Shown: positions 2,367-48,133 of the stretch, piece by piece | Numbering within the stretch: position 1 is the stretch's first letter | Layout of the letters: each line of letters opens with the position of its first letter | Translations under genes and position numbers: made by a program | Source: Methanobrevibacter gottschalkii DSM 11977 | Lineage (GTDB): Archaea; Methanobacteriota; Methanobacteria; Methanobacteriales; Methanobacteriaceae | Direction: 5' to 3' | Length of the DNA stretch: 64,000 nucleotides | NCBI RefSeq assembly: GCF_003814835.1 | Contig: NZ_RKRG01000001.1 | Location: 496,001-560,000, forward strand | The notes under the pieces: generated by a model | Database searches by the model: none | What the model was told of the DNA's origin: nothing | The model's input: the letters and a program-made list of their open reading frames with translations, nothing else

Positions 2367-2367
2367 C

Positions 2368-2395
2368 AATTATAAATAAAATTTTAATCATAATT
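2368..2395. promoter_or_regulatory. Imperfect 28-bp palindrome between modE-like gene and hxlB
   Basis: The arms are AATTAT (2368-2373) and ATAATT (2390-2395), with a perfect inner TAAAATTTTA (2377-2386); 24 of 28 positions are symmetrical. It lies in the short divergent spacer directly before the regulator start codon, so an autoregulatory operator is plausible. The AT-richness of the genome weakens the case. Confidence 0.35.
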
Positions 2396-2423
2396 AATAA
2401 TATCGATTTTGGGATTAGATAAA

Positions 2424-3014: not shown

Positions 3015-3033
3015 TTTAATCAAAAATTACTCT
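3008..3033. terminator. Bidirectional terminator between hxlB and fdhD
   Basis: A perfect 10-bp inverted repeat, AGAGTAATTT (3008-3017) and AAATTACTCT (3024-3033), spans both stop codons of the convergent genes, with short T-rich sequence on each side. Confidence 0.6.
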
Positions 3034-3765: not shown

Positions 3766-3871
3766 TTTTACTCCTCATTTTAAAGATATGTCAATTGTTA
3801 TATTTAAGTTTATGATTATTATATAATATTATATAATATAAATATCTTAAAATCTTAACGAGGTGAAAAAT

Positions 3872-4441: not shown

Positions 4442-4604
4442 TTATATTCTTATTTTTTTAGAAAATGTAAAATTATAATTCCAATTTCAATAATATTAAT
4501 ATTATTCTTGTTTTAATGATTGTTATTTTTAATTTTTATCGATTATATCTTTGTATTCAAAAAATGAAGAATGGTTTAATACAAATTTAGAAAAAAAAGA
4601 GTTT

Positions 4605-4617
4605 TAACACGATGTTA
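4605..4617. promoter_or_regulatory. Small palindrome upstream of fdhC
   Basis: TAACA-CGA-TGTTA lies about 200 bases before fdhC, in a 374-base gap that otherwise holds only promoter sequence. It is a possible regulator site, but is weakly supported because it is short. Confidence 0.25.
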
Positions 4618-4699
4618 CTAAAATTCATCATGATTTATCATTAACATTATTTTGATAACTCTTTATATTTAAATATTTCTTTTATTTTCTAATGACAAA

Positions 4700-4777
4700 T
4701 CCTTTATATATTAAACCAGTAATATAAGAACCATAATACTTTGAAACATCTTATATGTGGAATTCATTAAGTATTAT
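4700..4777 (+). promoter_or_regulatory. fdhC promoter and leader inverted repeat
   Basis: A TATA-like CTTTATATATT (about 4702-4712) is followed by a perfect 9-bp inverted repeat, ATAATACTT (4733-4741) and AAGTATTAT (4769-4777), close to the expected transcription start. The repeat could be an operator pair or a leader stem. A GAGG ribosome site precedes fdhC. Confidence 0.4.
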
Positions 4778-4815
4778 AAAAATTAATTTATAAAGGGAAT
4801 AAAGAGGTTGATAAA

Positions 4816-5619
4816 ATGAGTTCATTTAAAAGTCCAGTTGATACTGCAAAAGCAATATCTAAAACAGCTGGAGCAAAAAACTCTGCAAATATTGTTAATG
4901 TAATATTGCTCTCATTCTTAGCAGGAGCTTATATTGCATTCGGTGGTTTATTAGCAATTGTATCTAGCGCAGGTATGATTAAAGCTGGTGCTCCACTTGG
5001 TTTAGAAAAATTCGTATTTGGTGCAGTGTTCCCTGTAGGTTTAATTATTGTTGTTCTTGCAGGATCTGAATTATTCACTGGAAATGTTATGTTTATGGTT
5101 ATGGGTGTTTTAGATGGATCCGCTTCTATTGGCGGACTCGCTAAAAACTGGGTACTCAGTTGGGTTTTCAACTTTGTTGGTGCTTTATTCGTTGCATATG
5201 TTATAGCATTCATGGGCGGTTTATGTCCTACTGACGCATCCGTACCTGCATATGCTATTACTGCTAAAGCTATTGCAGTAGCAGAAGGTAAAGTAACTAT
5301 GCCTTTCACTGTAGCTTTAATTAAAGCTATTGGTTGTAACTGGTTAGTATGTTTGGCTGTATGGTTAGCTAATGTATCTGACGATGCTATTGGTAAGATT
5401 GTTGGTATTTGGTTCCCAATTATGGCTTTCGTTACCCTTGGATTTGAGCACAGTGTAGCAAACATGTGTTTCATCCCATTAGGTATGTTCTTAGGAGCTA
5501 AAGGTGTAACCTGGACTACTATTATTGTAAACAATTTAATCCCAGTTACTATTGGTAACATTATTGGTGGAGGACTCTTCGTAGCTTGTATTTATTGGTA
5601 CACTTTCCTTAAAGAATAA
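4816..5619 (+). CDS. fdhC: Formate transporter FdhC (FNT family)
   Basis: A 267-aa integral membrane protein of the formate/nitrite transporter family with about six hydrophobic segments. Family signatures include [22 protein letters not shown] and the later GFEHSVANM. It should bring formate across the membrane as substrate for FdhAB, encoded immediately downstream. The start follows AAAGAGGTTGATAAA. Length is normal for the family. A strong terminator-like hairpin separates it from fdhA, so transporter and enzyme genes may be transcribed at different levels. Confidence 0.93.
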
Positions 5620-5635
5620 GCTCGTTATGAACTTT

Positions 5636-5670
5636 AAAGAAGCTTATGTTACTTAAGCTTCTTTTTTTTT
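5636..5670 (+). terminator. Terminator/attenuator between fdhC and fdhA
   Basis: A perfect 11-bp stem, AAAGAAGCTTA (5636-5646) with TAAGCTTCTTT (5654-5664), encloses a 7-nt loop and runs into an uninterrupted T tract. It lies inside an otherwise co-directional gene set, so partial read-through is likely. Confidence 0.75.
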
Positions 5671-5707
5671 AAATAATATTAAGATATATATTTTGGAGAT
5701 TATTAAA

Positions 5708-7873
5708 ATGGTTGAAATTAAATATGTTCCAACAATCTGTCCATACTGTGGTACTGGTTGTGGACTCAATTTCGTTGTAAAAGACGGAAAAATTGTTGGT
5801 GTAGAACCTTTAAAAAGAAGCCCTGTAAACGAGGGTAAAGTATGTCCAAAAGGAAACTTTGGATACCAATTTATTAATAGGGAAGACAGATTAACTACTC
5901 CTTTAATAAAAGAAAACGGTGAATTTAGAGAAGCATCTTGGGATGAAGCATTAGATTTAGTTGCTAACAAACTCAAGGAAGTATCTGATGAAGATCCTAA
6001 TAAAGTAGGATTCTATGCATGTGCTCGTTCACCTAATGAAAACATTTACATTACTCAAAAATTAGCTAGGGTGGCTTGTGGTACTCAAAATGTAGACCAC
6101 TGTGCACGTATATGTCACGGACCTACTGTAGCAGGTTTAGCAAATACTTTCGGATCAGGGGCTATGACCAATGGTTTCGACAGTATTAAGGAAGCTGATT
6201 ACATTTTCTGTATTGGATCCAACAACATGGAAGCTCACCCATTATTCGGACGTAAAATGATCCAAGCTAAAGAAAATGGTGCTAAATTAGTAGTATTGGA
6301 TCCAAGATTCACTCCTACTGCTAAAATTGCAGATGAATATGTACAATTTGAAACTGGTACTGACGTAGCTTTAATGAATGCTATGATTAAAGTCATCATC
6401 GACAAAGACTTGCAAGATGATGAGTTTATTGCAAACAGAACCAAAGGTTACGAAGAAATGAAAGAAACTGTCCAAAAATACACATTAGACAAAGTTTCTG
6501 AAATTACCGGTATTAAACCTGAAACTATTGAACACTTGGCTGTTGAATATGCATCTGCTGATAAAGCAGCTATTGTATACTCATTAGGTATTACCGAACA
6601 CTCCCACGGTGCAGATAACGTAATGTCCACTGCAAACCTTGCAATGTTAACTGGTAACATTGGTAGACAAGGTACTGGTGTAAACCCATTAAGAGGACAA
6701 AACAACGTACAAGGTGCTTGTGATATGGGTGCATTACCTTCTGATTACGTAGGATACAGAAAAGTTAAAGACCCAGAAACCACTGCATGGTTCAACGACT
6801 ACTACAGTGGAGATGGTTATGAAGTAAACTTACCAACTACTCCTGGATTAACTTTAGTTGAAATGATGAACGCAGCTCATGCTGGTGACTTAAAAGTATT
6901 ATATATCCATGGGGAAGATCCAGTTCTCTCCGATGCAGATGTAAAACACACTAAAGAAGCACTTGAAAACTTAGAAATGTTAGTTGTTCAAGAATGTTTC
7001 TTAACTGATACTGCACAATGTGCTGATGTTGTTTTGCCTGCAGCAGGTTGGGGTGAACAAGAAGGTACTTTCACTAGTGGTGAAAGAAGAGTACAATGTT
7101 TACACAAAGCTCAAGAACCTCCTGAAGGCGCATGGTTAGATTGGAAAATCATGGAAGAAATTGCAGTCAGAATGGGAGTACCTAGATCTTTATTCCACTA
7201 CGAAACTTCTGAAGATATTTTCAACGAAATCAGGGAATGCGCTCCTATCATGGCAGGTATGAACCGTGAAAGATTAGACACTCCTGAAGCACTTCACTGG
7301 CCTTGTCCTTCTGAAGATGACCCATGTCAACCATTAATGCACAAAGAAAAATTTGCACACCCTGATGGTTTAGGAGTTTTCCAAGCATTAGAACACAAAG
7401 GACCTGTTGAAACTACTGATGAGGAATATCCATTAGTCTTAACTACTACTAGGGTATTGTTCCACTATCACGCTGCAATGACCAGAAGATGTGAAACATT
7501 AAATAATGAAGTAAAAACTGGATTCATCGAAATCAACACTAAAGATGCTGAAGAAAGAGGAATTATTAATGGTGAAGTTGTAAGAGCTTACTCTAGAAGA
7601 GGAGAAATCGCAATTCCTGCACGTGTAACTGATGATATCAGAGAAGGTATTGTAAACATCCCAATGCACTTTGTAGAATGTGCTGCAAACGTATTAACTA
7701 ACTCCGATTCTTTCGACCCTAAATCTAAAATGGTCGAATTAAAAGCTTGTGCTATTAACGTAGAAAAACTCCCTGAAAAAGTAGTCATGAGAGGAGAAGT
7801 CTACAAAGATGGTACTGATACTGAAATTAAAGCTGAAAACATGGCTACTACCACCATTAAAGTAGGTAAATAA
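5708..7873 (+). CDS. fdhA: F420-dependent formate dehydrogenase, alpha (catalytic) subunit
   Basis: This 721-aa protein belongs to the molybdopterin oxidoreductase family. An N-terminal [4Fe-4S] site reads CPYCGTGC with a fourth cysteine at 46. The active site is Cys136-His137 in [12 protein letters not shown], where some methanococci carry selenocysteine, so this is the cysteine form. C-terminal residues form the dinucleotide-binding domain. It oxidises formate to CO2 and passes electrons to F420 through FdhB. Metal (Mo or W) is not readable. I start at the ATG at 5708 after TGGAG; a TTG at 5693 would overlap that site. fdhB follows 17 bases later. Confidence 0.95.
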
Positions 7874-7890
7874 ATAAGGAGTAGATTTAA

Positions 7891-9096
7891 ATGAGCGCAA
7901 AAATTAACGATATGTACTACGCATACTCTGCTATTGAAGATATCAAAGAAAAAGGAGAGTACGGTGGAGTAGTAACTACTATCATGAAATACTTATTAGA
8001 AGAAGGTATCGTTGACGGTGTTGTTGGTGTAACCGAAGGTCATGATATGTATGATGGTGTACCTATTCTCGTAACTGACCCTGCAGATGTAATTAAAACT
8101 GCTGGTTCCGTACACTGCGGTACTTTAAACATTGCTAAATTTGTATCAAAATACTTAGATGGTGCAAGAGACATGAAACTTGCTGTTGCATGTAAACCTT
8201 GTGATGCAATGACCATCAGAGAATTAATGAAAAAAGGTAAAATCATCGAAGATAATGTAATCATGATTGGGGTAAACTGTGGAGGTACTTTCTCACCTGT
8301 TCCTACCATGAACATGATTAGAGATGTATACGAATTAGATCCTAAAGATGTTATCAAAGAAGAAATTTCCAAAGGAAAACTCATTATGGAAACTGCTGAT
8401 GGTGAAAAAGGAATTGCTATTGGTGAGTTAGAAGAACAAGGTTTAGGTAGAAGAGAAAACTGTCAAAGATGTAATCTCAAAATTCCTTCCAATGCTGATA
8501 TGGCTTTAGGTAACTGGGGTGTTATTGGTGATTTAGCTGGAAAAGCAACTTTCATTGAAGTATTCACTGAAAAAGGTGCAGATGCTTTAGGTAAAGTTAT
8601 CGATGCTGGTTTAATTGCTACTGAAGAACCTCTTGAAAAAGGAATCAAAATCAGAGAAAATATTAACAACTTCATGCTCAAAGAGTCCTTGGAGAAAAAA
8701 GATGTTGACTATGCAGGTACTACTGGAGATATTATTGATGTATTCCACATGTATGAAGATGAATTCTCTAAATGTATGAAATGTTACGGTTGTCGTGAAG
8801 CATGTCCTTTATGTTACTGTGATGACTGCTGTCTCGAAACTGAAGGTCCTGAATGGGTACCTGGTGGATACACTCCTGCAGCTCCTTTCTTCCATTTGAC
8901 TCGTTTAGTGCACATGGTTGACGCATGTACTAACTGTGGACAATGTTCAGAAGTATGTCCATGTGAAATACCTGTAGCTAAAGTATGGAGTATTGTAAAC
9001 AATAAAGTAAGAGATATCTACGGATACATTCCTGGTATGGGTAGTGATGATCCACTTCCATTCACTGACCATGTATCCAAAGCTAAATGGATTTAA
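7891..9096 (+). CDS. fdhB: F420-dependent formate dehydrogenase, beta subunit
   Basis: This 401-aa protein is of the FrhB/FdhB family, which binds FAD and reduces coenzyme F420. It has the N-terminal FrhB-like part (EYGGVVTTIMKYLLEEG), a central cysteine site (RRENCQRC) and a C-terminal pair of ferredoxin-type clusters, CMKCYGCREACPLC and CTNCGQCSEVCPC. It forms the electron exit of the formate dehydrogenase with FdhA, and may also pair with heterodisulfide reductase in methanogens. The AAGGAG ribosome site and short spacing show it is co-transcribed with fdhA. A strong terminator hairpin follows. Confidence 0.95.
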   Translation: MSAKINDMYYAYSAIEDIKEKGEYGGVVTTIMKYLLEEGIVDGVVGVTEGHDMYDGVPILVTDPADVIKTAGSVHCGTLNIAKFVSKYLDGARDMKLAVACKPCDAMTIRELMKKGKIIEDNVIMIGVNCGGTFSPVPTMNMIRDVYELDPKDVIKEEISKGKLIMETADGEKGIAIGELEEQGLGRRENCQRCNLKIPSNADMALGNWGVIGDLAGKATFIEVFTEKGADALGKVIDAGLIATEEPLEKGIKIRENINNFMLKESLEKKDVDYAGTTGDIIDVFHMYEDEFSKCMKCYGCREACPLCYCDDCCLETEGPEWVPGGYTPAAPFFHLTRLVHMVDACTNCGQCSEVCPCEIPVAKVWSIVNNKVRDIYGYIPGMGSDDPLPFTDHVSKAKWI

Positions 9097-9132
9097 GGGG
9101 GGGTTCCCTCTTATCCATTTTTATTTTTTACT
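9085..9132 (+). terminator. Terminator after fdhB
   Basis: The stem AAATGGAT (9085-9092) pairs with ATCCATTT (9113-9120) and extends inward through G-rich and C-rich arms. T-rich sequence follows. Confidence 0.75.
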
Positions 9133-9182
9133 CATAAATAATAACACTGTTATATCTTCTTTTTAAAAAATAAACAAGAGTT

Positions 9183-10118
9183 TTAATCCTCTTTGTTAAA
9201 TGGTTCTCGGTTATTAATTCCATTGATAAATAGTTCTTCAAGTTCTTCTTCACTTTTACCATTTCTAATATGTGAAATTAATTCCACTAAATTATCATTT
9301 CTAAGTAAACAAGGTTTTATCTTTCCATCTGGTGTTATTCTTAATCTGGAACAACTTGCACAGAATTTAGCATTATCAACTGGTCTAACTATTTCAATTT
9401 CACCCTCACCAATGTAATATTTCTTACGCCCTTGCATAAATTTACGTTCATGTACTTTATCAGCCATATCAGTTAATTTCTTTTCAAGGGAGTCTAATGA
9501 ATAGTGATGTTCAGCACTGAATTTATCATCTTCACAATTTTCACTTTCAATTAATTCGATCAATTGAAGGATAATTCCATGTTCTTTACAGAATTCAAAC
9601 ATATCTTTTATTTCATGGACATTCACATCTTTCATTATAACCATGTTTATTTTAACAGGGTATAATCCAACTTCAACAGCTTTTAAGATACCTGATTTAG
9701 CTTCATTTAGATAATCCATGTTAGTTACATATTTGTATGTATCTCTGTTTAATGTATCTAAACTAACATTAACTCTATCTAACCCCGCATCTTTTAAGCC
9801 TTTAGCATATTTTTCAAGTAGTACTCCATTTGTAGTCAAGGAAATATCATTAAAATCAAGACTTGCTATTTTTTCAACAATTTCCACTATGTCTTTTCTA
9901 ACCAATGGATCTCCACCAGAAAGTCTCATTCTTTTAACACCAATTTTCCTAGCTATTTTGCTTATTTTATATAATTCATCTGGTGTCATTTCATCTTTTG
10001 ATGAAACCATTCCATCGTGATGACAGTATATGCAGTTTTCGTTGCATCTATTTGTTATTGTGATTCTTAGTGAAAGGATAGGTCTTTCATATTTATCTTT
10101 AACTACGTTTTTTAACAT
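9183..10118 (-). CDS. moaA: GTP 3',8-cyclase MoaA (molybdenum cofactor synthesis)
   Basis: This 311-aa radical SAM enzyme has the SAM cluster CNENCIYC (Cys25, 29, 32), the SGGDPL motif and a C-terminal cysteine set CASCSRLRITPDGKIKPC for the second [4Fe-4S] cluster. It carries out the first step of molybdopterin synthesis from GTP. It is encoded one base downstream of mobB, so the two form an operon. The location between formate dehydrogenase and formylmethanofuran dehydrogenase genes matches the need for cofactor in both enzymes. Length and motifs are normal. Confidence 0.93.
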   Translation of the reverse strand: MLKNVVKDKYERPILSLRITITNRCNENCIYCHHDGMVSSKDEMTPDELYKISKIARKIGVKRMRLSGGDPLVRKDIVEIVEKIASLDFNDISLTTNGVLLEKYAKGLKDAGLDRVNVSLDTLNRDTYKYVTNMDYLNEAKSGILKAVEVGLYPVKINMVIMKDVNVHEIKDMFEFCKEHGIILQLIELIESENCEDDKFSAEHHYSLDSLEKKLTDMADKVHERKFMQGRKKYYIGEGEIEIVRPVDNAKFCASCSRLRITPDGKIKPCLLRNDNLVELISHIRNGKSEEELEELFINGINNREPFNKED

Positions 10119-10119
10119 G

Positions 10120-11157
10120 TTATCTTTCTTCCACTTTGATTCTTAATTCTGCAATTTCCTCATTAATCCTTAAGGAATTTACAATTGCAAAAATTGTTTC
10201 TTTTAGTATCTTCTGTGTAAATCTGTTAATTTCAACATTATGGTTGTTTACTTTAAGGTTAATTGTAGCTTTTTTTAATTCATTGTTTTTGATATTTGAA
10301 ATAGCTATGTCAATCATTTTAGCATTGTCTTCAGTTTTAATGGAATTAATCATTCCTTTAATGGAGTTTGCAACAAGATTTTTTGCGAAGTTGTTGATTT
10401 TTAAATTGTTGCCATTGATCAAAACAGTACATTCAGCGTTAATTGGAGTTTTATCTACTTCATTTGGGATTATTAATTCAATGTTAGATATCTTTTCAAT
10501 ATTATAATCATCTAAATTTAATGTATTTATTACACCAAGCACATTTTGCTTTAAAAAATCACTAACAAATCTATTCAGTCCAACTACTTTATTATCAATT
10601 GAAAGATAACTGTGTACATTATCTAGTTCATCAACAGTTAAGTTTCCTTCACGAATTTCAGATGCAATATTTTCTCCATTGTTATATCCGCAATTATTTG
10701 CAAATAATGTATCTACAATATCATGGGATCTTTCTTCGATAATATCAACTAATTCTTTTAAACCTTTATCATCAATAGTAAAGGAATTTATCTCTTTAAT
10801 TGTATATTCATCGACTACATCAGGGGATGTTGCAATTTTTGGGTAATTATATTTTTTAAATCCTTCAATGACAACGAAGTCGACGGGGTCCATATGTTTT
10901 ATTAAAAATAGCAATCTATTTAAATCCATTTCTTTTCTTGCATTGAAAAATGTTGTTGAACCAATTCCAACGACAACATTGGATCCTGCTTGTTTATGTT
11001 TCCATGTATCGGTATTTTCTTTATCCATTTCCATAGAGTGATGAGAATGTTTGATTGATGCTACATTGTAGCCTCTTTTTGTAAGTTCTTCAATAATTTT
11101 TACTGTTAGTGAAGTTTTTCCAGTATTTTTTCTTCCAACTATAGATACTATTTTCAT
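10120..11157 (-). CDS. mobB: MobB-like GTP-binding protein with threefold C-terminal repeat
   Basis: Residues 1 to about 145 are a MobB P-loop domain (GRKNTGKTS at 8-16, KHSHH near 37), associated with converting molybdopterin to its guanine dinucleotide form. The rest is unusual for MobB: a short segment with a single cysteine (NNCGYNNGENIASEI, about 154-168) that resembles a worn-down Fe-S motif, then three related units of about 45 residues at 184-230, 243-286 and 299-343. Each unit shares a pattern of hydrophobic-N-N, then LN/IN-x-F, then a helix ending VINTL/MINSI/IVNSL. The repeat function is unknown. It is the first gene of the mobB-moaA unit, with an operator-like palindrome 61 bases upstream. 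Confidence 0.85.
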   Translation of the reverse strand: MKIVSIVGRKNTGKTSLTVKIIEELTKRGYNVASIKHSHHSMEMDKENTDTWKHKQAGSNVVVGIGSTTFFNARKEMDLNRLLFLIKHMDPVDFVVIEGFKKYNYPKIATSPDVVDEYTIKEINSFTIDDKGLKELVDIIEERSHDIVDTLFANNCGYNNGENIASEIREGNLTVDELDNVHSYLSIDNKVVGLNRFVSDFLKQNVLGVINTLNLDDYNIEKISNIELIIPNEVDKTPINAECTVLINGNNLKINNFAKNLVANSIKGMINSIKTEDNAKMIDIAISNIKNNELKKATINLKVNNHNVEINRFTQKILKETIFAIVNSLRINEEIAELRIKVEER

Positions 11158-11217
11158 AATATTCTCCCCTTATTATATTAGTGATTGGTACTAATTAAGA
11201 ATTTCTAAATGAATTAT

Positions 11218-11232
11218 GTGTAGTTACTACAC
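11218..11232. promoter_or_regulatory. Palindromic operator candidate, mobB side
   Basis: GTGTAGTTACTACAC is a perfect 7-1-7 palindrome. It lies just downstream of a TATA-like stretch (about 11270-11280 read on the minus strand), near the expected mobB transcription start. It has the same form as the 11538 site. Confidence 0.6.
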
Positions 11233-11461
11233 TTCATGCATTGTCCAATAAATTTTACTTTATTTTGCTAATTTTATAATACTTTTTGCTTATATTCTTA
11301 TTACTAATTTCTTCTTATTTTTATATTTTTCATTGTGTTTTGGCATTATATTTATGTTATCCAATTATTTAAGATATTTTAGTTTCTATTTAATCCAATA
11401 TATAATATGTGCTCTTTATTTTATTATTTTTTTATTAATATTCCTTTTTTTAAAAAAAATT

Positions 11462-11476
11462 GTGTAGTTATCCCAC
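11462..11476. promoter_or_regulatory. Degenerate copy of the GTGTARTNAYTACAC site
   Basis: GTGTAGTTATCCCAC keeps an intact left half and the outer GTG/CAC with the same spacing, but its right half is altered. It lies about 60 bases upstream of the fwd promoter TATA. Confidence 0.35.
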
Positions 11477-11514
11477 AGTTATATATAATAGTTGTGTCTT
11501 CAATCTAGTAGGTA

Positions 11515-11556
11515 AATATATTTATATAAGTAAACATATGTGTAATCATTACACAT
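11515..11556 (+). promoter_or_regulatory. fwd operon promoter with overlapping 19-bp perfect palindrome
   Basis: The TATA-like AATATATTTATATAAG (11515-11530) is followed at 11538-11556 by ATGTGTAATCATTACACAT, a perfect 19-bp palindrome where transcription should start. That position suits a repressor. The core GTGTAAT-N-ATTACAC matches the site upstream of mobB, so both divergent units may share a regulator. Confidence 0.65.
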
Positions 11557-11566
11557 GGTGGTTCAA

Positions 11567-12016
11567 ATGCCAAAACATATTGCGTCTGGTTTAAAATATT
11601 TGGCTGCAGTCAAATTAAAAATGGCGGGTAAAAGTCATCAAGAAATTGCTGACGAGTTAGGTGTTGATAGATCTACTATCTCTCATTATTTGAATGGTAG
11701 AAACTTGTCTTGGAACTCTATTGATGTTGCAAGGACAATCATCGACTTATGTCCCAAAGATTTTTTGACAATGACTGAAGCAATATTTAACAATCCAGAA
11801 CAGAGTCGTAAAATTGTGAATATTTGCAGAGAAAGAAATTTTGAAGCAAAAGTTGAAGATTCTTGTATTGGTTGCGGCTTGTGTGTAAATGCATGTACAA
11901 TGAAAGCTATTAAATTAGAATCATTAAAAGCACATGCAGACTCCATGCAATGTTGTGGTTGTCAGCTTTGTGAAGATGAATGCCCAACTAATTCGATAAA
12001 AATTTTGGAGATTTAA
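11567..12016 (+). CDS. HTH DNA-binding / 2x[4Fe-4S] ferredoxin fusion, first gene of fwd operon
   Basis: This 149-aa protein joins a helix-turn-helix (HQEIADELGVDRSTISHYLNG, about residues 25-45) to a C-terminal ferredoxin domain with two cysteine sets, CIGCGLCVNAC and CCGCQLCEDECP. The fusion suggests a DNA-binding protein whose state depends on Fe-S clusters. Its gene ends one base before fwdF, in the position occupied by the small ferredoxin gene of related fwd operons. I prefer the ATG at 11567 with GGTGG before it over the ATG at 11555. A perfect palindrome covers its promoter, so autoregulation is a reasonable inference. No experiment on this protein is known to me. Confidence 0.75.
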   Translation: MPKHIASGLKYLAAVKLKMAGKSHQEIADELGVDRSTISHYLNGRNLSWNSIDVARTIIDLCPKDFLTMTEAIFNNPEQSRKIVNICRERNFEAKVEDSCIGCGLCVNACTMKAIKLESLKAHADSMQCCGCQLCEDECPTNSIKILEI

Positions 12017-12017
12017 T

Positions 12018-13115
12018 ATGATTAGAAATTTAAAAGAGGTTAAAGACAATAACTTTGACATCACAAGGTCAGCAGACGAAGTTAGAAACTTGTCTTTCAA
12101 TGACCATGTCTGTTTAGGTTGTGGGATTTGTGAATCTACTTGTCCTGTTGAAGCGATTACATTAAATGCAGTTGCTATTGATGCTCGTAACAGACTTTCA
12201 AACGACATCTATTTCAGTGGGCACGAAAAGATTGCTCAAAACTTCCGTGAAGATTTTGATGTTCAAAGAATAAGCATTGACGAAAGTAAATGTGTATTAT
12301 GTGGTATGTGCAGTGGATTATGTCCTGTTGATGCATTGGTATTAACTATTGATGATGTGCCAATTAGAGAAATTGAAGCATATCCTCATTATAATGCTTT
12401 CTCAGAAATTGATGATGATGAATGTATCTACTGTAAAAGATGTGAAATTGCATGTCCTCGTGATGCAATCGTTATCGAAAGAGTTTTACCAGACCGTGCT
12501 GATTTAGTAACTGGTGAAATCAATGTCGATGATGATGAATGTATTTACTGCGGCATATGTGAAGAATTATGTCCTGCAGAAGCAATTGTTGTTGATCATG
12601 AAACTGGTAAAGAATCTATTGTTATTGACAAAGATAAATGTGTATACTGTCTTGTATGTAAAAAATCTTGTCCTACTAATGCGATTAACGCAATTTGTAG
12701 ATTATGTAACTATGGAGAATATGATTTAGATTCTTCAAAATCAGTTGTTAAAGGTAACTCCATCATTGACCCAGACCTTTGTGTCTACTGTGGATGGTGT
12801 GAAGGTGTATGTCCTACCGATGCTGCAAAAGTTAAAAAACCGTTTAAAGGTAGTATTGAAGTTGATGATGAAAAATGTCAAGCTTGTGGTGCTTGTGTAG
12901 ATATTTGTCAATGTAACGCTTTAGCATTCCCTGTATCTACTGGTCCGGGTTCCAGAATGGCACATGTTGTTGCTAATGATGATTACTGTGTACGTTGTAA
13001 AGCATGTGCAAAAGCATGTCCTAACGGCGCTATTACTGTAAAAAGAACTGAAGTTGACCACACTCCTATTAACTCTGCTACTTGGAAAGAAGCTTTAGAT
13101 GCTATTAAAGACTAG
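12018..13115 (+). CDS. fwdF: Polyferredoxin, formylmethanofuran dehydrogenase subunit F
   Basis: This 365-aa protein carries eight ferredoxin-type cysteine motifs in a row (for example CLGCGICESTCP, CVYCGWCEGVCP, CVRCKACAKACP), enough for eight [4Fe-4S] clusters. In the tungsten enzyme it acts as an electron wire connecting Fwd cores and, by the flavin-based bifurcation model, links to heterodisulfide reductase. The seventh motif reads CQACGACVDICQC and lacks the usual proline. The gene lies between the HTH/ferredoxin gene and fwdG with one-base and eight-base gaps. Confidence 0.93.
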   Translation: MIRNLKEVKDNNFDITRSADEVRNLSFNDHVCLGCGICESTCPVEAITLNAVAIDARNRLSNDIYFSGHEKIAQNFREDFDVQRISIDESKCVLCGMCSGLCPVDALVLTIDDVPIREIEAYPHYNAFSEIDDDECIYCKRCEIACPRDAIVIERVLPDRADLVTGEINVDDDECIYCGICEELCPAEAIVVDHETGKESIVIDKDKCVYCLVCKKSCPTNAINAICRLCNYGEYDLDSSKSVVKGNSIIDPDLCVYCGWCEGVCPTDAAKVKKPFKGSIEVDDEKCQACGACVDICQCNALAFPVSTGPGSRMAHVVANDDYCVRCKACAKACPNGAITVKRTEVDHTPINSATWKEALDAIKD

Positions 13116-13123
13116 GTGATTGG

Positions 13124-13354
13124 ATGGAACTAAAAGTTAATCAAGATAATTGTTTAGGATGCGGTATTTGTGTAATCGCATGTCCTGTTAATGCAGCTAT
13201 CAGTCCTGAAAATGCTGGTGGTAACGGTGCAAAGACTGAAGAAGTCATTATGATGGTTGAAAATGGATTTATCAAACTCTTCAGTCCTGAAAAATGTGAA
13301 TTGTGTGGAACATGTCAAATGTTTTGCCCAGTAAATGCTATATGGTTAGAATAA
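13124..13354 (+). CDS. fwdG: Ferredoxin subunit FwdG of formylmethanofuran dehydrogenase
   Basis: A 76-aa dicluster ferredoxin with motifs [12 protein letters not shown] and [12 protein letters not shown]. It carries electrons between the polyferredoxin FwdF and the catalytic FwdB/FwdD pair. Eight bases separate it from fwdF; fwdD follows after 13 bases with an AAGGGGG ribosome site. Confidence 0.93.
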
Positions 13355-13367
13355 GGGGGATTATATA

Positions 13368-13937
13368 ATGTATTATGCTAATACTTATTTAGAAAAACCT
13401 GTAGTGCCTGATGTAAAAATTACTGGTGAAGGAAATACAGAAGTTCTCAAATGTATGTTAAACACTGGATCTGACATATACCAAGGTGCTTGTAAAAAAA
13501 GAGGATCTACATTAAAACAAGAATACAAAAATGTTTCTGGTACTTGTTACATGGATCCTAGGGATATGGCAAAATTGGGTGTAAACAATTGGGATACTGT
13601 TCTTGTTAAAACAGATTTCGGTGAAGTTGTTGTGAACTGTGCAGTATCAAGGGATGCACCTCATGAAGGTACTGTATTCATTTGTAAAGGTCCTTGGGCT
13701 AACACTATTGTAAGTCACGACACTTACTGTTGTTCCGACCCTACTTACAAAGGTATTAAATGTACTGTAGAAAAAACTGATAGAAAAGTATTACTCATGG
13801 CTGATTTAATGAGATGGGTATACAAAAAATACGTTGATGAAGAAGATGACGATGTTGTTGAAAACATGGAATCTTTAGGTGAATTACCTGTTTATCATGG
13901 ACGTAAATGGGAGGAGTTGATTGATCATGACTTATGA
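13368..13937 (+). CDS. fwdD: Formylmethanofuran dehydrogenase subunit D
   Basis: This 189-aa protein matches the C-terminal molybdopterin-dinucleotide-binding domain of formate dehydrogenase-type enzymes, here a separate subunit. It opens with a short lead and has the family stretch [16 protein letters not shown], then [21 protein letters not shown]. With FwdB it forms the tungstopterin site that reduces CO2 to formate. Its last 11 bases overlap the start of fwdB, implying translational coupling. The acidic [15 protein letters not shown] stretch near its end is a surface feature of unknown meaning. Confidence 0.9.
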
Positions 13938-15303
13938 ACCACCTGTAACTGATTATGACCACATTGTTGAAAATTGTACTTGTGCATTTTGTGGTTGTAA
14001 CTGTGATGATTTAGATTACTTAGTAAAAGATAATCATGTTGTTGCTGTAAGACACGCATGCAGATTAGGAGCAAGTAAAATCATGGAAGATATGGATCAA
14101 AGATTACTTGTTCCAATGATTAGGGATGAAAATGGAGAACTCACTGAAGTTGATTGGGATACTGCATTAGATAAAGCTGCAGAGTATATTGCTAATTCTA
14201 TCAGACCTGTATTCTATGGTTGGTCTGAAACTTCAACTGAATGTATGAAAGAAGGTGTAGCATTAGGTGAATACATCGGTGCTGTATTAGATAACCAAGC
14301 TACTATCTGTCACGGTCCTTCTCTCCAAGCTGTACAAAACGCAGGTTATCCTATTCAAACCTTAGGGGAAGTTCAAAATAGGGCTGACATGATTGTTTAC
14401 TCTGGAAGTAACGCTATGAATTCTCACCCTAGACATTTAGCAAGATATGCTGCTTTCTGTCGTGGATACTTCAGACAAAGGGGAAGATTTGACAGAACTG
14501 TTGTAACTATGGATCCTAAATTCTCAGATACTGCAAAATGTTCTGATAAATGGATTGGATTTGAACAAAATGGGGATTATGGTTTTTATAATGCTATTAG
14601 AGCTGTACTTAGAGGAAAAGAATTATACCAGGATGTAATTTCTGGAATTCCAAAAGAAGATATTTATGAATTGGCAGAAGAAATGAAACAAGCTGAATTT
14701 GGTGTTCTCTTCTTCGGTTTAGGTTTAACCCACACTTTATCAAAACAAAGAAACATTGATATTGCTATTAAAATGGTACAGGACTTAAACAAATACAGTA
14801 AATGGGGACTTACTCCTATGAGAGGTCACTTCAACGTAAACGGATTCAACATTTTCATGGCATTTGAATGTGGATTTGCTTTCGGTGTTGACTACTGTAG
14901 AGGTTACCCAAGATATATGTTAGGTGAAACCAACACTATCGATTTATTAGTCAGAAAAGAACCTGACTGTTTCATGGTTATTGCAGCGGATCCTGGTGCT
15001 CACTTCCCTAATGGAGCAAACCAACACTTAGCTGATATTCCTGTTATTCAAATCGATATTCACTGGGGTCCTTCCACTGAACTCGCTGATGTAGTATTGC
15101 CTGGTTCATTCATCGCTGTAGAATGTGATGGTACCAGTTATCGTATGGATGGGGTTCCTATATACATGAAAAAAGCAATCGACAAACCTGAAACTTGTCG
15201 TGACGATGAATGGATCGTCCGTGAATTGAAAGAAAGAGTAATGAAACTCAGAGAAGAGCCTAATGTAGCTCCAAAATATGTGCCAAATCCAAACGCACTC
15301 TAA
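13927..15303 (+). CDS. fwdB: Formylmethanofuran dehydrogenase subunit B (catalytic)
   Basis: This 458-aa catalytic subunit has an N-terminal [4Fe-4S] site (CAFCGCNC, plus Cys45) and active-site Cys128-His129 in [10 protein letters not shown]. Cysteine rather than selenocysteine ligates the metal. It reduces CO2 to formate, which passes inside the complex to FwdA for condensation with methanofuran. The ATG at 13927 follows GGGAGGAG and overlaps the end of fwdD. Operon order and the tungsten-type gene set suggest W as metal, but the sequence alone does not prove it. Confidence 0.94.
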
Positions 15304-43107: not shown

Positions 43108-43494
43108 CTAATTGTTTATCAATGTATTTTTGAATATGTTCTCTAATTCGATTTTAGTTTCATCATCATAGAATTCATTGCCCAAATCGGTAGTTAATGT
43201 AAACATTGCGAGTTCATAAACTACCTTATTAAGTTTTTTCCCTTTATCAGTTAATGTGTATTCAATAATTTGCTTATCTTCATCGTTGTTTCTAGAGATA
43301 AGTCCGTTTTCTTCCATTTCTTTTAGACAATTGCTTAAAACTTTATTAGATAGATTAGGTTTTCCATCTTTAAATTCATTGAAACGTTTTTTTCCAAAAA
43401 ACATATCTCTCAAGATTTGAATAACCCATTTTCTGCTAATCAATTCCATGGCAAGTTCCATTGGGCATTTTTCTGCTTTTTTATCATTATTCAT
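43108..43494 (-). CDS. HxlR-family winged-helix regulator
   Basis: This 128-aa protein has the HxlR signature CPMELAMELISRKWVIQILRD, followed by RFNEFK and LSNKVLSNCLKEMEENGLI, the recognition helix and wing. HxlR proteins often sense electrophiles or redox changes through an N-terminal cysteine; here one lies in KAEKCPME. The ATG at 43494 follows AGGAGAC. It diverges from the repeat peptide gene and is the likely regulator of that cluster. Confidence 0.88.
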   Translation of the reverse strand: MNNDKKAEKCPMELAMELISRKWVIQILRDMFFGKKRFNEFKDGKPNLSNKVLSNCLKEMEENGLISRNNDEDKQIIEYTLTDKGKKLNKVVYELAMFTLTTDLGNEFYDDETKIELENIFKNTLINN

Positions 43495-43546
43495 ATAATG
43501 TCTCCTACTGTTATAATATTCATTAATCAATATTAATTAGTTTTAA

Positions 43547-43564
43547 GTAACTTGGAGGTAACTT
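43547..43564. promoter_or_regulatory. GTAACTT direct repeat in divergent spacer
   Basis: GTAACTT occurs at 43547-43553 and 43558-43564, one helical turn apart, between the HxlR gene and the peptide gene. It is a candidate HxlR operator; the evidence is spacing and position only. Confidence 0.35.
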
Positions 43565-43640
43565 TATTCTTTTTATATCTGCTGAAATATACTATAATTA
43601 AATAAAAGTTTACTTTTATTAAAATTTAAGGTGATAAATT

Positions 43641-44038
43641 ATGAAATTTAATGCATGGAATAATAATGAGAAATTTTTCTCATCAAAAATCGCACAAAAT
43701 GTAATTTCTACCGCTTGTGGTTCTGATATTAACACTGCTTGTGGCAGTGATGTGGCTGCTTCTGCTTGTGGTTCTGATATTAACACTGCTTGTGGCAGTG
43801 ATGTGGCTGCTTCTGCTTGTGGTTCTGATATTAACACTGCTTGTGGCAGTGATGTGGCTGCTTCTGCTTGTGGTTCTGATATTAACACTGCTGTGGCAGT
43901 GATGTGGCTGCTTCTGCTTGTGGTTCTGATATTAACACTGCTTGTGGCAGTGATGTGGCTGCTTCTGCTTGTGGTTCTGATATTAACACTGCATGTGGAT
44001 CAGATATCACCACAGCTTGTGGTTCAGACAGATTTTAA
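43641..44038 (+). pseudogene. ACGSD-repeat peptide precursor, one base short
   Basis: After a leader of about 24 residues (MKFNAWNNNEKFFSSKIAQN, VIST) the protein is built of ACGSD units alternating with linkers INT and VAAS, ending ITT-ACGSD-RF. Thirteen units are visible in DNA, but a missing T near 43891 breaks the frame in unit eight. Restoring it gives one 132-residue product with 13 cysteines. Such Cys repeats next to a radical SAM/SPASM enzyme mark a ribosomally made, modified peptide. From memory, NCBI/TIGRFAM lists an ACGX-repeat peptide with such an enzyme; product and function are unknown. The ribosome site is AAGGTGA. Frame loss may be a sequencing error, a mutation or switching. 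Confidence 0.75.
43713..43966 (+). repeat. Five tandem 51-bp units in the peptide gene
   Basis: Units begin at 43713, 43764, 43815, 43866 (50 bases, one T missing) and 43916, and are otherwise identical. A diverged sixth starts at 43967. Each unit encodes ACGSDINT-ACGSDVAAS. The 17-codon period keeps the frame when units are gained or lost. Confidence 0.95.
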
Positions 44039-44056
44039 GATTAATTCAATCTTAAA
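44034..44056 (+). terminator. Hairpin between peptide and radical SAM genes
   Basis: TTTAAGATT (44034-44042) and AATCTTAAA (44048-44056) form a 9-bp perfect stem over the peptide stop codon, with T-rich sequence behind. As an attenuator it would give more peptide message than enzyme message. Confidence 0.6.
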
Positions 44057-44100
44057 TATTTTATTTTTTTATATACTATTTTTTTGAGGAGTTGTTTTTT

Positions 44101-45129
44101 ATGGCTGATTTTTTTGCATTTCAATGGCATATCCTTGATGACTGTGACCAGCGATGCAAGCATTGCTATATTTTTTCAGAAGAAAATGACAAGGAATTAA
44201 TAACAATGAAATATGAGGATATGGAAATTGTTTTAGATAACTGCTTAAAATTCTGCCTGAAAACAAACAGGACACCATATTTCAGCATTACTGGAGGAGA
44301 CCCGATTCTTCATCCTGATTTTTGGCAATTGCTTGAAATGTTGCACGAAAAGAAGATTCACTATTCAATACTGGGAAACCCCTTTCATATTACCGATGAA
44401 GTTGCAAAAAGACTTAAAAGCTTAAGCTGCAGGCAGTATCAACTGTCTTTGGATGGTCTAAGAGACACCCATGACTATTTTAGAAAACCCGGTTCGTTTG
44501 ACATTACACTTGAAAAAATTAGAATCTTGCAGGATGCAGGAGTCAGAGCCAGCATCATGACGACAGTTTCCAAGACAAACATTGATGAAATTCCAGATTT
44601 GATTGATGTCGTTGTTGAAAATAATGCATGTTTATTCAGCTTTGCAAGATATTGTCCGACAAGCCTTGAAAAAGCGGCACAAATGACTTCTGAAGAATAT
44701 AAAAACCTTTTGGCAAAGGTATGGGAAAAATACAATGAATATAAAGACAGCAAAACATTTTTTACACTAAAGGATCATCTATGGACATTATTCTTATATG
44801 AAAAAGGGTTATATGAGATTCCAGAAAATTTGAATGATGATATTGTCTATGATGGATGCAATTGTGGAAACAGTCATTTGACAATTTTGCCGTCAGGTGA
44901 TGTATTCGCATGTCGCAGAATGGACAGTAAGGTTGGAAATGCCTTAAATGAATCAATATATGATATTTTCATGGGTGATAATATGGATGAATACAGACAA
45001 TTTGAAAAATTCGAAAAATGCAGCCGATGCGAATTGCTGAGATTCTGCAGAGGGTGTCCGGCGGTAAGTTACGGAACAACTCATGACATGTATTCTCCAG
45101 ACCCCCAATGCTGGAAAGTGGTGTTATAA
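44101..45129 (+). CDS. Radical SAM/SPASM peptide-modifying enzyme
   Basis: This 342-aa enzyme has the radical SAM cluster CDQRCKHC (Cys15, 19, 22), a SITGGDPILHP glycine-rich SAM site, and a C-terminal SPASM domain with cysteines in GCNCGN, FACRR, CSRCELLRFCRGC and PQCW that bind auxiliary [4Fe-4S] clusters. Enzymes of this type install thioether or other crosslinks on small peptides, so the adjacent ACGSD peptide is the probable substrate. The ATG at 44101 follows TGAGGAG. Its stop overlaps the start of the next gene by one base. The reaction is inferred from family and context. Confidence 0.88.
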   Translation: MADFFAFQWHILDDCDQRCKHCYIFSEENDKELITMKYEDMEIVLDNCLKFCLKTNRTPYFSITGGDPILHPDFWQLLEMLHEKKIHYSILGNPFHITDEVAKRLKSLSCRQYQLSLDGLRDTHDYFRKPGSFDITLEKIRILQDAGVRASIMTTVSKTNIDEIPDLIDVVVENNACLFSFARYCPTSLEKAAQMTSEEYKNLLAKVWEKYNEYKDSKTFFTLKDHLWTLFLYEKGLYEIPENLNDDIVYDGCNCGNSHLTILPSGDVFACRRMDSKVGNALNESIYDIFMGDNMDEYRQFEKFEKCSRCELLRFCRGCPAVSYGTTHDMYSPDPQCWKVVL

Positions 45130-46094
45130 TGAAAGCAGTTGTTTTGGAAAAAACTTGTAATGCTGACGAGTTGAAAGTCAGCGAAGTTGAAATTCCTAAA
45201 GTTAAAGATGGTTGGGTTTTAGTTAAGATTCTAGGCTTTGGAATTAACAGGGCTGAAGTAATTTTAAGGGATTATGAAGCCGATGAAGATTATATTGAAT
45301 TGCCTGTAATTCCCGGTATTGAATGCGTTGGAAAAGTAGTTGATTCATCAAATACTCGATTTAAAAACGGGGATAGGATAGCTGCACTTATGGGTGGAAT
45401 GGGAAGAAGTTTTGATGGAGGATATGCCGAATATGCTCTACTTCCTGAAAAAATTGTCTTTAAAATTGATGAAGATGTTTTTGACAAATTGACATTGGAG
45501 GAAATAATAGCAATTCCTGAAACTTATTTCACTGCCTATGGGTCTTTAATGTCACTTAATCTTGTAAAGGATGATACTCTATTAATCAGAGGTGCAACCT
45601 CTGCATTGGGCCTTTCTGCAATGCAACTTGCAAACTCAATGGGATGTGAAATATTTGCAACGTCCAGAAGTGAAGAAAGATTTGGTAAGTTAAAGTCAAA
45701 TGGTGCGGATGAGTGCTTTGCTGATGATGGTTGTTTGGCTGAAAAATTAAATTGTGATAAGGTACTGGAATTGATTGGCCCTAAAACTCTTGAAGATTCA
45801 ATGAAATGCATTAACAGTGGAGGAATATGCTGTGTTACAGGTGTTTTGGGAGGTATTGAGTATATGGATGAATTCGATCCAATCAAGATTATCCCAAATG
45901 GCAGGTACTTGACTTCTTTTTTCAGCAATTATCCGACACAGGAGATAATGGACAACATATTTGATTTCATTATTAAAAATAACATCAAACCTGAAATTTC
46001 AAGAGTATTCTATAATTTGGAAGATATTGGAAAAGCTCATACTTTGATGGAGTCAAACATGGCTCAAGGAAAGATTATATTTAAATTGGAGTAG
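45129..46094 (+). CDS. Medium-chain dehydrogenase/quinone-oxidoreductase-like protein
   Basis: This 321-aa MDR protein has an N-terminal GroES-like part (VLVKILGFGINRAEV; VIPGIECVGKV) and a nucleotide-binding RGATSALGLSAMQLA segment. Catalytic zinc ligands are not evident, placing it with quinone oxidoreductase or enoyl reductase types. The start overlaps the radical SAM stop (TAATG), so translation is coupled. It may reduce dehydro-residues or serve another step in the peptide pathway; this is inference. An in-frame ATG at 45108 lies inside the previous gene and is rejected. Confidence 0.8.
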   Translation: MKAVVLEKTCNADELKVSEVEIPKVKDGWVLVKILGFGINRAEVILRDYEADEDYIELPVIPGIECVGKVVDSSNTRFKNGDRIAALMGGMGRSFDGGYAEYALLPEKIVFKIDEDVFDKLTLEEIIAIPETYFTAYGSLMSLNLVKDDTLLIRGATSALGLSAMQLANSMGCEIFATSRSEERFGKLKSNGADECFADDGCLAEKLNCDKVLELIGPKTLEDSMKCINSGGICCVTGVLGGIEYMDEFDPIKIIPNGRYLTSFFSNYPTQEIMDNIFDFIIKNNIKPEISRVFYNLEDIGKAHTLMESNMAQGKIIFKLE

Positions 46095-46099
46095 TTAAT

Positions 46100-46711
46100 A
46101 TGGTTACTAAAGAAGAATGTTTTAAACAATTAAGAGATGTGATTGATGCGGTTTTATCCACTGTTGATGATAATGGCAATCCTCAATCAAGAATTATTGA
46201 TATAATGCATATTGAAGATGATAAAATATATTTTCTAACTGGCCGTGGAAAACATGTTTATTCAGAAATAATAAATCATCCAAAGGTTAGTTATTTAAGC
46301 TTAAAAGACAATAAATCCATTAGAATTAGTGGTGAAGCTCATAAATTGGACAATCAAAAATATTGGATTGATTTAATATTTGAAAACAATCCATTTATGA
46401 ATAATGTTTATCCGGGAAATGCGAGATATATTTTAGAACCTTTTTGCATTGAAGATTATGAAATGGAATTCTTTGATTTGACACAAAAGCCTATTTTCAG
46501 ACAATCCTTCAAATTCGGTGATGTTGAAATAACAGTTAAGGGATTTGAGATAACTGGTGATTGTATTGCTTGCGGTACTTGTCAGGCATGTTGTCCGCAG
46601 CAGATTCCAGTTTTTGTTGACGATAAGTTTGAAATTCCGCCGGAACATTGTTTGCATTGTGGATTATGTTATGAAAATTGTCCGAATGATGCGATTGTTA
46701 AAAGGGAATAA
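46100..46711 (+). CDS. Pyridoxamine-phosphate-oxidase-like flavin protein fused to ferredoxin
   Basis: This 203-aa protein has an N-terminal FMN-binding split barrel of the PNPOx type (DAVLSTVDDNGNPQSRIID, YFLTGRGKHVYSEI) and a C-terminal dicluster ferredoxin, CIACGTCQACCP and CLHCGLCYENCP. The fusion suggests electron transfer between ferredoxin and a flavin. Located five bases after the MDR gene, last in the cluster, it may supply electrons to the radical SAM enzyme or modify the product. GGAG precedes the ATG. Confidence 0.8.
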   Translation: MVTKEECFKQLRDVIDAVLSTVDDNGNPQSRIIDIMHIEDDKIYFLTGRGKHVYSEIINHPKVSYLSLKDNKSIRISGEAHKLDNQKYWIDLIFENNPFMNNVYPGNARYILEPFCIEDYEMEFFDLTQKPIFRQSFKFGDVEITVKGFEITGDCIACGTCQACCPQQIPVFVDDKFEIPPEHCLHCGLCYENCPNDAIVKRE

Positions 46712-46875: not shown

Positions 46876-48133
46876 AGGGGTCTGAATTTTTTAGTTTTCA
46901 GATAATTGTTGTATGGCTGTTTTAGAGTAGAATCCTTGCGATATGATTAGTGCTCCTAAAAATACATTTAAATATACTGTTTTTTCAACTGATTCAGGTG
47001 TGTATTTGTGTATTTGCCTCATGTTGAGTCCTTGTTTGAGTAATTTGAAGAAATCTTCAATTTTACCCCTTTATTGGTTTGAATTTTTTCCAGTTGTCTA
47101 GTTTTTTTAGTAATTCGTGTTTTAAGTTGTTGTAAAATCTTTTTTCGGTCAGGATTTTCTTTGTTTTCTTAAATACATGTAATGGGTAGGATAATTGATT
47201 ATCTAGTTTGGTTCTTTTGAAATTGTCTCTTGGAAAAATGAAAGGAACGATTTTTATATTTGCTAATTCCTATTTGATAGTTTTTATAGCTGTAATAACC
47301 TTTGTCAAAAATTACTGTGTCTCCTTTTTGAATTATACGTCTTTTTTGGAGATTTTCCATAACGTTGTCAAAAAGTTTTGCATCATTTGGGGGCTCCAGA
47401 ATGGATTAAAATACAAACGGGATTCATACTATCGTAATTAATGACAACAGTTGCTTTAAATCCAATATAAAATCCTTTTGATGATGAATAACTCCATTTT
47501 AAATTCAAAGTTTCTAGATGTTCTTTTTTCTTTTTATTTCTGTAGAAATTAAAATCTAAGTTCACTGGTGTGGCATCCACTATAAAAGTCTTTTTTCCTC
47601 TTCTTTTAACACGATTTCTTGAATTTAAAATGCGATTTAATGCTTTAATGAGATTATCGGAGTTCTGAAGTGATAAAAGTTTTGTAAACCTGATCAGCAC
47701 TCCAAACTTCAGAAATATTAAAGTATTTACGAAGTTTTTCTTTAGATTCAAGCTCACTCAAGATGAATGGAATATCTAAACCAAAGAACATGCTGATAAA
47801 TATAATTTTAAAAGTAAATACTTGTTTATTCAAGTTTTTAAAGCCAAATGAAGCTAAAATTTCAGAAGTTTCTCGGGAATCCATAATTTTAAATATTTCT
47901 TTCAACAAAATGTAATTTGGGTCTTTAATATCTAAATTTAATCTGTGTTTCATTTTTATCACTAAATAAACTTATGTAACACATAATATTTAAATTTATC
48001 GATATTAAGACCCTTTTTATTAAAATTAACGCTAACAAAAATGTATTTTTACAAACCATACGAAATAAATGAAAAAAATACGAAAAATAGAACAAATTAA
48101 GCCGAATTTTAATCAAAAAAATTCAGACCCCCT
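46876..48133 (-). mobile_element. Degraded insertion sequence A
   Basis: The element is 1258 bases, bounded by inverted repeats AGGGGTCTGAATTTTTT (left) and AGGGGGTCTGAATTTTTTT (right, minus strand). Flanks read AAATATTT and AAATATAT, a possible imperfect 8-bp target duplication. It contains one transposase gene on the minus strand with several frameshifts. Size and ends recall ISM1-type elements of Methanobrevibacter, but I cannot confirm the family. Confidence 0.8.
46891..47953 (-). pseudogene. DDE transposase of insertion sequence A, at least three frameshifts
   Basis: Starts MKHRLNLDIKDPNYILLKEI; a second segment has FIVDATPVNLDFNFYRN; a third reads DAKLFDNVMENLQKRRII and GDTVIFDKGYYSYKN; the last ends KTVYLNVFLGALIISQGFYS. 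Together they match an IS4/IS5-like DDE transposase broken by single-base changes. No intact transposase is encoded. Confidence 0.8.

Follow-up and report, generated by a model that had tools for sequence, protein, structure and literature searches.

The question raised by one locus of Methanobrevibacter gottschalkii DSM 11977 is why a gene for a cysteine-rich repeat peptide and a radical SAM/SPASM enzyme should be accompanied by a regulator and two redox genes. The region analysed was a stretch of 64,000 nucleotides (NZ_RKRG01000001.1, positions 496,001–560,000), here called the window, to which coordinates refer unless a contig is named. An earlier note on this DNA had described five genes between 43108 and 46711: an HxlR regulator, the repeat peptide gene that it faces, the radical SAM enzyme, an MDR-family reductase and a PNPOx-like flavin domain fused to a ferredoxin (PNPOx-Fd). 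All five were confirmed at these places and in this order. The answer that we hold to be modestly probable is that the cassette is an HxlR-controlled intracellular thiol/electrophile-stress device, built on a radical SAM-modified Cys-Gly repeat peptide which is also a candidate substrate of the sirtuin and macrodomain pair SirTM/Zn-macro. This reading starts from observed gene order, protein families, co-occurrence, mutual exclusion of two reductases, linkage to SirTM and a shared site upstream of both gene groups.

The suspicion that the enzyme belongs to the ACGX radical SAM family was borne out by a score of 569.2 bits to TIGR04340 (rSAM_ACGX; curated cut-off 400), with residues 4–341 aligned to positions 2–341 of the 341-position model; the next-best model, SbtM, gave 204 bits against a cut-off of 350. 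The enzyme and its peptide type are therefore already catalogued (TIGR04340/TIGR04341). Identity as an anaerobic sulfatase maturase (TIGR03942; 71.3 bits, cut-off 349) was rejected by score; the PapB-type ranthipeptide model (NF047865) gave 71.4 bits, also below its cut-off of 340. PF04055 and PF13186 both matched the protein. Among 29 aligned members the CxxxCxxC motif (C15, C19, C22) was invariant, as were C185 and, in the SPASM region, C253, C255, C271, C307, C310, C316, C319 and C337. In the tree of the enzyme the Methanobacteriota occupy one part and the Thermoplasmatota another, with some nested among Bacillota; from this placement the cassette probably crossed domains more than once, transfer counts from a tree alone not being proof. 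One side observation concerns a Methanobacteriaceae genome of genus g12 (close homologues in Methanosphaera), in which precursor, MDR, PNPOx-Fd and HxlR are intact and the enzyme gene is broken into two open reading frames (ORFs; L114, G117, 2346–3367).

The structure model of the enzyme (pLDDT 88.6) found its best Foldseek matches in SuiB, SkfB and TigE, all peptide maturases, and no N-terminal RRE-like recognition domain was present in its 342 residues. Because these three make peptide natural products, the product might be a secreted crosslinked peptide, either a ranthipeptide or sactipeptide bacteriocin or a signal, for which MDR and PNPOx-Fd would do the tailoring or supply electrons. ACGSD has the Cys-x2-Asp pattern and PapB tolerates Cys-Asp separations of 0–6 residues (PMC9413430); ranthipeptides are also common in rumen bacteria (PMC13289728). 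We nevertheless consider a secreted product unlikely: no exporter, leader protease or immunity family was found among the gene clusters present in at least 7 of 87 loci, in place of a single defined core there is a long repeat that varies from 2 to 13 units, and the reductases and SirTM/Zn-macro have their place in metabolism or the stress response.

Across loci the core Cys of the precursor is followed by Gly in 533 of 539 instances and preceded by Ala in 509. Methanogen-type arrays carry Asp or Glu at the second position after Gly (CX2D/E) in 169 of 229 CG units, and bacterial arrays alternate CGSAC and CGAGD (CX3D/E); the unit differs strongly between phyla. Precursors beside the enzyme gene were found in Methanobacteriota, Thermoplasmatota, Bacteroidota, Bacillota, Spirochaetota, Elusimicrobiota and Synergistota; they almost always adjoin it where the upstream sequence could be read (exceptions L041 and L089), and their leader is conserved across phyla. 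Bacterial homologues score 48–67 bits to TIGR04341 (cut-off 28 bits); neither the window ORF nor an intact Methanobrevibacter homologue matched that model at an E-value of 0.01. Family membership, adjacency and the conserved leader together strongly indicate that the enzyme acts on this peptide. The same facts bear on the proposal that the peptide serves as a thiol buffer or binds metals with little or no modification, comparable to the Cys-Gly repeats of phytochelatin, the radical SAM enzyme acting elsewhere or making a minor change. Cys-Gly repeats with acidic residues do resemble thiol- and metal-binding peptides, and HxlR and SirTM point to thiol stress, but a peptide so constantly beside the enzyme and with so conserved a leader looks like its substrate, and this proposal is accordingly improbable.

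The precursor had been described as carrying 13 ACGSD units; all 13 are present in the DNA (period 51, 5.6 copies, 98% matches) but not in a single reading frame. The spacing of Cys-Gly codons is 24 or 27 nucleotides throughout, with a single exception of 23 from 43869 to 43892. Units 1–7 share the frame of the ATG at 43641 and units 8–13 lie in a second frame, open to ACGSDRF*, the C-terminus of close relatives. After its seven units the ORF continues with about 60 hydrophobic residues (AVAVMWLLLLVVLIL...), the out-of-frame part of the array beyond the one-nucleotide deletion reading as a membrane-like tail. Those arrays of relatives that could be read are each in one frame. Since many relatives' contigs stop inside the array (L006, L007, L012, L013, L035 and L036), faulty assembly or base calling and a mutation of the strain are equally likely causes. 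Gain or loss of repeat units, as in phase variation, was rejected as the cause, because the 51-nucleotide unit preserves the frame and a one-nucleotide insertion or deletion is required. Another Methanobrevibacter rSAM_ACGX locus (L117, G091; 2804–3022 and 3258–4265) has a degenerate partner peptide with TSCCIDTT repeats and PCGSN; MDR is missing, flavodoxin-like and nitroreductase-like genes are present, and one internal stop was counted in its enzyme match in the whole-genome search.

The two redox genes following the enzyme were examined by co-occurrence. In 139 Methanobacteriaceae genomes the enzyme was present in 33 and MDR in 32, with 30 shared (p = 1e-24); PNPOx-Fd was present in 36, again with 30 shared (p = 4e-21). 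Thus neither of the two outcomes named in the earlier note as speaking against it, an enzyme grouping with the sulfatase maturases or other unrelated SPASM enzymes and partner genes that do not co-occur, was found. Both genes also stand beside the enzyme in Bacteroidota, Bacillota, Thermoplasmatota and others. MDR matched quinone oxidoreductases in the PDB and gave a TIGR02824-like score below that model's cut-off. The PNPOx-Fd model (pLDDT 94.9) combines an FMN-split-barrel with a two-cluster ferredoxin, its fold matching PNPOx, NimA/NimC and general-stress proteins; both CxxCxxCxxxCP motifs and a near-invariant Cys7 were seen in the alignment.

Full flanks were available for 45 loci, drawn from all phyla: 27 contain MDR, 13 a nitroreductase, none both and five neither (p = 1e-7). 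Lachnospiraceae loci, six with nitroreductase and two with MDR, show the same mutual exclusion. On these grounds the two look like non-homologous replacements in one role, that of an NAD(P)H reductase. The general cassette of archaea and bacteria is HxlR – ACGX peptide – radical SAM enzyme – one NAD(P)H reductase – often PNPOx/2[4Fe-4S]. Dedicated reductases that substitute for one another, identical repeated units suited to excision and an intracellular layout would also fit a peptide-derived redox cofactor like mycofactocin or PQQ, its units excised, matured and used by MDR or nitroreductase and PNPOx-Fd; the cassette has no recurrent peptidase and the unit varies strongly between phyla, and we give this possibility little credence. 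Two observations stand apart. In one locus (L113, G064; 3123–6910) an ABC transporter pair, a permease with fused binding domain and an ATPase, lies between homologues of MDR and PNPOx-Fd, and no rSAM_ACGX gene is present, so the two reductases are not confined to loci with the peptide. Near Bacillota cassettes (L050, L051, L061, L062, L064, L096, L097) a DUF1848 protein (PF08902) recurs whose C-terminal CGHGCLYCYANY motif recalls an Fe-S site or that of a radical SAM enzyme.

Clustering of cassette neighbours also brought out a sirtuin and a macrodomain. The sirtuin matches SirTM of Streptococcus pyogenes (5a3a, E = 5e-54). Class M sirtuins are marked by QG in place of HG, a GVGx[NT]TP motif and an adjacent macrodomain (PMC4518038); cassette-linked sirtuins have these marks (VQGDYG and GVGFNTP in L051, with Zn-macro adjacent), and the macrodomain matches the Zn-macrodomains, scoring 335 bits to NF003163 (cut-off 272). 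Among 50 cassette genomes SirTM was present in 24, within the cassette locus in 14. Among 299 Lachnospiraceae genomes rSAM_ACGX occurred in 37 and SirTM in 140, 32 being shared (p = 1e-7), and SirTM lay at most 5 kb from the enzyme gene in 22 of the 37, in 20 of them co-oriented downstream. In the SirTM query used for that family approximately 30 residues at the start had been supplied by hand, the remainder being real L112 sequence; a wholly real query gave the same positions in the two Lachnospiraceae genomes searched with both (G147, G152). SirTM was seen in a cassette setting in Sporomusa, Treponema, Bacteroidaceae and Erysipelotrichales too, and one locus (L131) has the full operon, HxlR facing precursor – radical SAM enzyme – MDR – PNPOx-Fd – Zn-macro – SirTM.

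In methanogens adjacency of SirTM to the cassette was searched for and not found, the pair being located elsewhere in the genome. SirTM was present in 30 of 33 enzyme-positive and 45 of 106 other Methanobacteriaceae genomes (p = 4e-7, related genomes not being independent); inside the genus of the window, with 66 genomes assumed, the association gave p = 4e-4. In the known extended SirTM operon the sulfur carrier is lipoyl-GcvH-L, which has a flavin oxidoreductase as binding partner and receives ADP-ribose on Asp27 (PMC4518038; PMC11490716). Neither GcvH-L nor LplA2 was recognised among the neighbours read at cassette loci. Zn-macrodomains release ADP-ribose bound to Asp/Glu or to Cys, and the enzyme of Methanobrevibacter oralis cannot act on GcvH-L (PMC11490716), so that another substrate must exist in such genomes. 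Tentatively, and as a possibility that we would not yet rely on, the radical SAM-modified ACGX peptide could be the substrate of these "minimal" SirTM/Zn-macrodomain pairs in place of lipoyl-GcvH-L, in archaea and bacteria alike and under HxlR control, ADP-ribosylation of Asp or Cys switching its redox activity off and the Zn-macrodomain switching it on.

An HxlR gene was present in 34 of the 45 full-flank loci. The protein encoded in the window has the HxlR fold (PF01638) and the conserved N-terminal Cys of HxlR/DUF24 thiol sensors, Cys10-Pro11 being invariant in an alignment of 24 cassette-linked members. DUF24 regulators of Bacillus subtilis, which govern nitroreductases and flavin disulfide reductases, sense quinones, diamide and HOCl through such a Cys (PMC6943732). 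Redox control by HxlR, as the earlier note had it, is plausible on account of the invariant Cys10-Pro11. The HxlR–precursor gaps of methanogen cassettes have in common a GTAAC-N6-GTWAC site (17 of 20 cassettes), and from these gaps the pattern GTAACYNNNNRGTWAC was derived before the sequence around the SirTM pair was read. In the 1.88-Mb genome it has only two exact matches, one in the cassette (43547–43562) and the other at C1:300037–300052, upstream of the Zn-macro/SirTM genes by approximately 160 bp. The reversed pattern gave no exact match. The HxlR of the window may bind both putative operators. In 13 of 41 methanogen Zn-macro/SirTM loci the site was found within 460 bp around the start of the pair, most with a divergent HxlR gene, and shuffled sequence gave 0.8 sites in the whole 41-locus set. 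Elsewhere (L123, G046; 3917–14771) a redox island approximately 16 kb from a cassette contains four HxlR-like, two flavodoxin-like and two PNPOx-like genes and a second, divergent SirTM.

From these data the following course may be proposed for the stress device. HxlR, to judge from its conserved Cys-Pro and the putative operator, would sense disulfide, quinone or other electrophile stress and alter expression of the divergent operon. The radical SAM/SPASM enzyme would then modify the repetitive A-C-G-(S/A/T)-(D/E or G-D) peptide, carbon-sulfur links from Cys to a neighbouring Asp/Glu or Gly being the most likely chemistry. The peptide would not leave the cell but act there as a multivalent carrier for sulfur redox chemistry or for trapping electrophiles; the NAD(P)H reductase (MDR, elsewhere nitroreductase) would service it, as would the PNPOx/2[4Fe-4S] protein, which might pass electrons between flavin and low-potential Fe-S centres. 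Finally, where SirTM and Zn-macro are encoded in the same operon, as in many bacteria, the first would ADP-ribosylate a cassette component and the second de-ribosylate it, the peptide's Asp or Cys being plausible sites; in methanogens a separate HxlR-type operon holds the pair. The presence of the SirTM pair in many bacterial operons suggests that the device handles stress inside the cell and is not a secreted antibiotic, and cross-domain spread, the replacement of MDR by nitroreductase, the lack of a recurring exporter or protease and SirTM/Zn-macro together point away from a secreted product.

Several points weigh against the stress device. The precursor of the window is itself frameshifted, and the function of the cassette is read from sequence. 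Two Elusimicrobia loci retain peptide and enzyme without reductase or HxlR; in these (L071, L073) the peptide is a divergent Cys-repeat type (TGCGCSSC, TGCNI) and SirTM is likewise lacking. The lack of an exporter beside the cassette genes does not exclude one elsewhere in the genome. Many Prevotella-type cassettes are without SirTM, and rSAM_ACGX is missing from 45 of 75 SirTM-bearing Methanobacteriaceae, where SirTM must have other targets or work alone. The site upstream of Zn-macro/SirTM was found in 5 of 21 enzyme-positive and 8 of 20 enzyme-negative genomes; because it is no commoner in the former, it is a general sign of HxlR control over the pair and is HxlR-class, not ACGX-specific. 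An operator regulon marking ACGX-bearing genomes alone was rejected on the same count.

The features of the locus are collected in Table 1. MDR had been said to overlap the enzyme gene by one base, and it does so exactly, its start lying inside the stop of the latter (TAATG). Of the attenuator-like hairpin the stem and T tracts were found, and they are retained in the nearest relatives (L033–L038); folding is weak (about -4 to -6 kcal/mol), so that it may at most act as a weak attenuator. Downstream of the cassette (46891–47962, reverse strand) several short overlapping ORFs resemble a decayed transposase; the pieces tested had no match in a Pfam search.

Table 1. Coordinates of the ACGX cassette features in the window
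Feature	Position	Strand	Remarks
HxlR/DUF24 family regulator, 128 aa	43108..43494	-	ATG at 43494; PF01638 73 bits, cut-off 20.8
Putative HxlR operator GTAACTTGGAGGTAAC (GTAAC-N6-GTWAC)	43547..43562	+	between HxlR and precursor genes
ACGX-type precursor ORF as written	43641..44087	+	leader MKFNAWNNNEKFFSSKIAQNVIST, 7 in-frame ACGSD units, frameshifted hydrophobic tail
Tandem repeat array, 13 ACGSD units at DNA level	43713..44035	+	51-bp double unit; 1-nt deletion ~43889-43892
Array remainder, other frame	43887..44038	+	6 ACGSD units, end ACGSDRF* as in relatives
9-bp AT-rich hairpin followed by T tracts	44034..44056	+	between precursor and radical SAM genes
Radical SAM/SPASM enzyme rSAM_ACGX, 342 aa	44101..45129	+	TIGR04340 569 bits
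MDR (zinc-free quinone oxidoreductase-like, NAD(P)H-type), 321 aa	45129..46094	+	PF08240, PF00107
PNPOx-like flavin domain fused to 2[4Fe-4S] ferredoxin, 203 aa	46100..46711	+	PF01243 and Fer4 families

The ACGX enzyme–peptide pair has so far been a database entry without a described role, and its partners suggest a testable one in thiol/electrophile stress. The cassette of this gut methanogen is common to many gut bacteria and, if the proposal is true, a single redox-peptide device would be common to rumen and gut methanogens and bacteria. The ACGX peptide is a candidate target of such SirTM/Zn-macro pairs; an acidic Cys-rich peptide in the same operon suits the Asp/Glu- and Cys-linked ADP-ribose that Zn-macrodomains cleave (PMC11490716).

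Among the nearest known systems is the ACGX system of NCBIfam (TIGR04340/TIGR04341), with which the locus shares an enzyme above cut-off and a neighbouring precursor with ACG repeats and a short leader; it differs in that the methanogen ACGSD precursor gives no match to TIGR04341 (E above 0.01) and in its HxlR, MDR/nitroreductase, PNPOx-Fd and SirTM/Zn-macro partners. As far as the literature searched shows, these surroundings are undescribed, no paper being found on ACGX, TIGR04340, TIGR04341, HxlR with ribosomally synthesised and post-translationally modified peptides (RiPPs), or sirtuin, macrodomain and radical SAM together. SuiB, SkfB and TigE, solved RiPP maturases, are the best fold and sequence matches of the enzyme, at approximately 16–23% identity, and their N-terminal peptide-binding region is absent from rSAM_ACGX here. 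With PapB and the ranthipeptides (freyrasin; Cys-Asp thioethers) it shares a SPASM radical SAM enzyme and several Cys with a nearby acidic residue (CX2D/E in methanogens, CX3D/E in bacteria); the low NF047865 score (71 bits), the lack of an RRE and the redox and ADP-ribosylation partners set it apart. We know of no radical SAM peptide and no SirTM in the YodB, CatR and HypR (DUF24) regulons of Bacillus subtilis. These are alike in placing an N-terminal-Cys HxlR/DUF24 regulator next to nitro-, azo- and quinone-type reductases (PMC6943732). The extended SirTM/Zn-Macro operon (GcvH-L, LplA2, OYE, LLM), linked to oxidative stress, likewise has flavin/NAD(P)H oxidoreductases and a carrier of sulfur next to its SirTM and Zn-macrodomain (PMC4518038, PMC11490716); here that carrier would be a radical SAM-linked Cys-repeat peptide instead of lipoyl-GcvH-L, under HxlR control.

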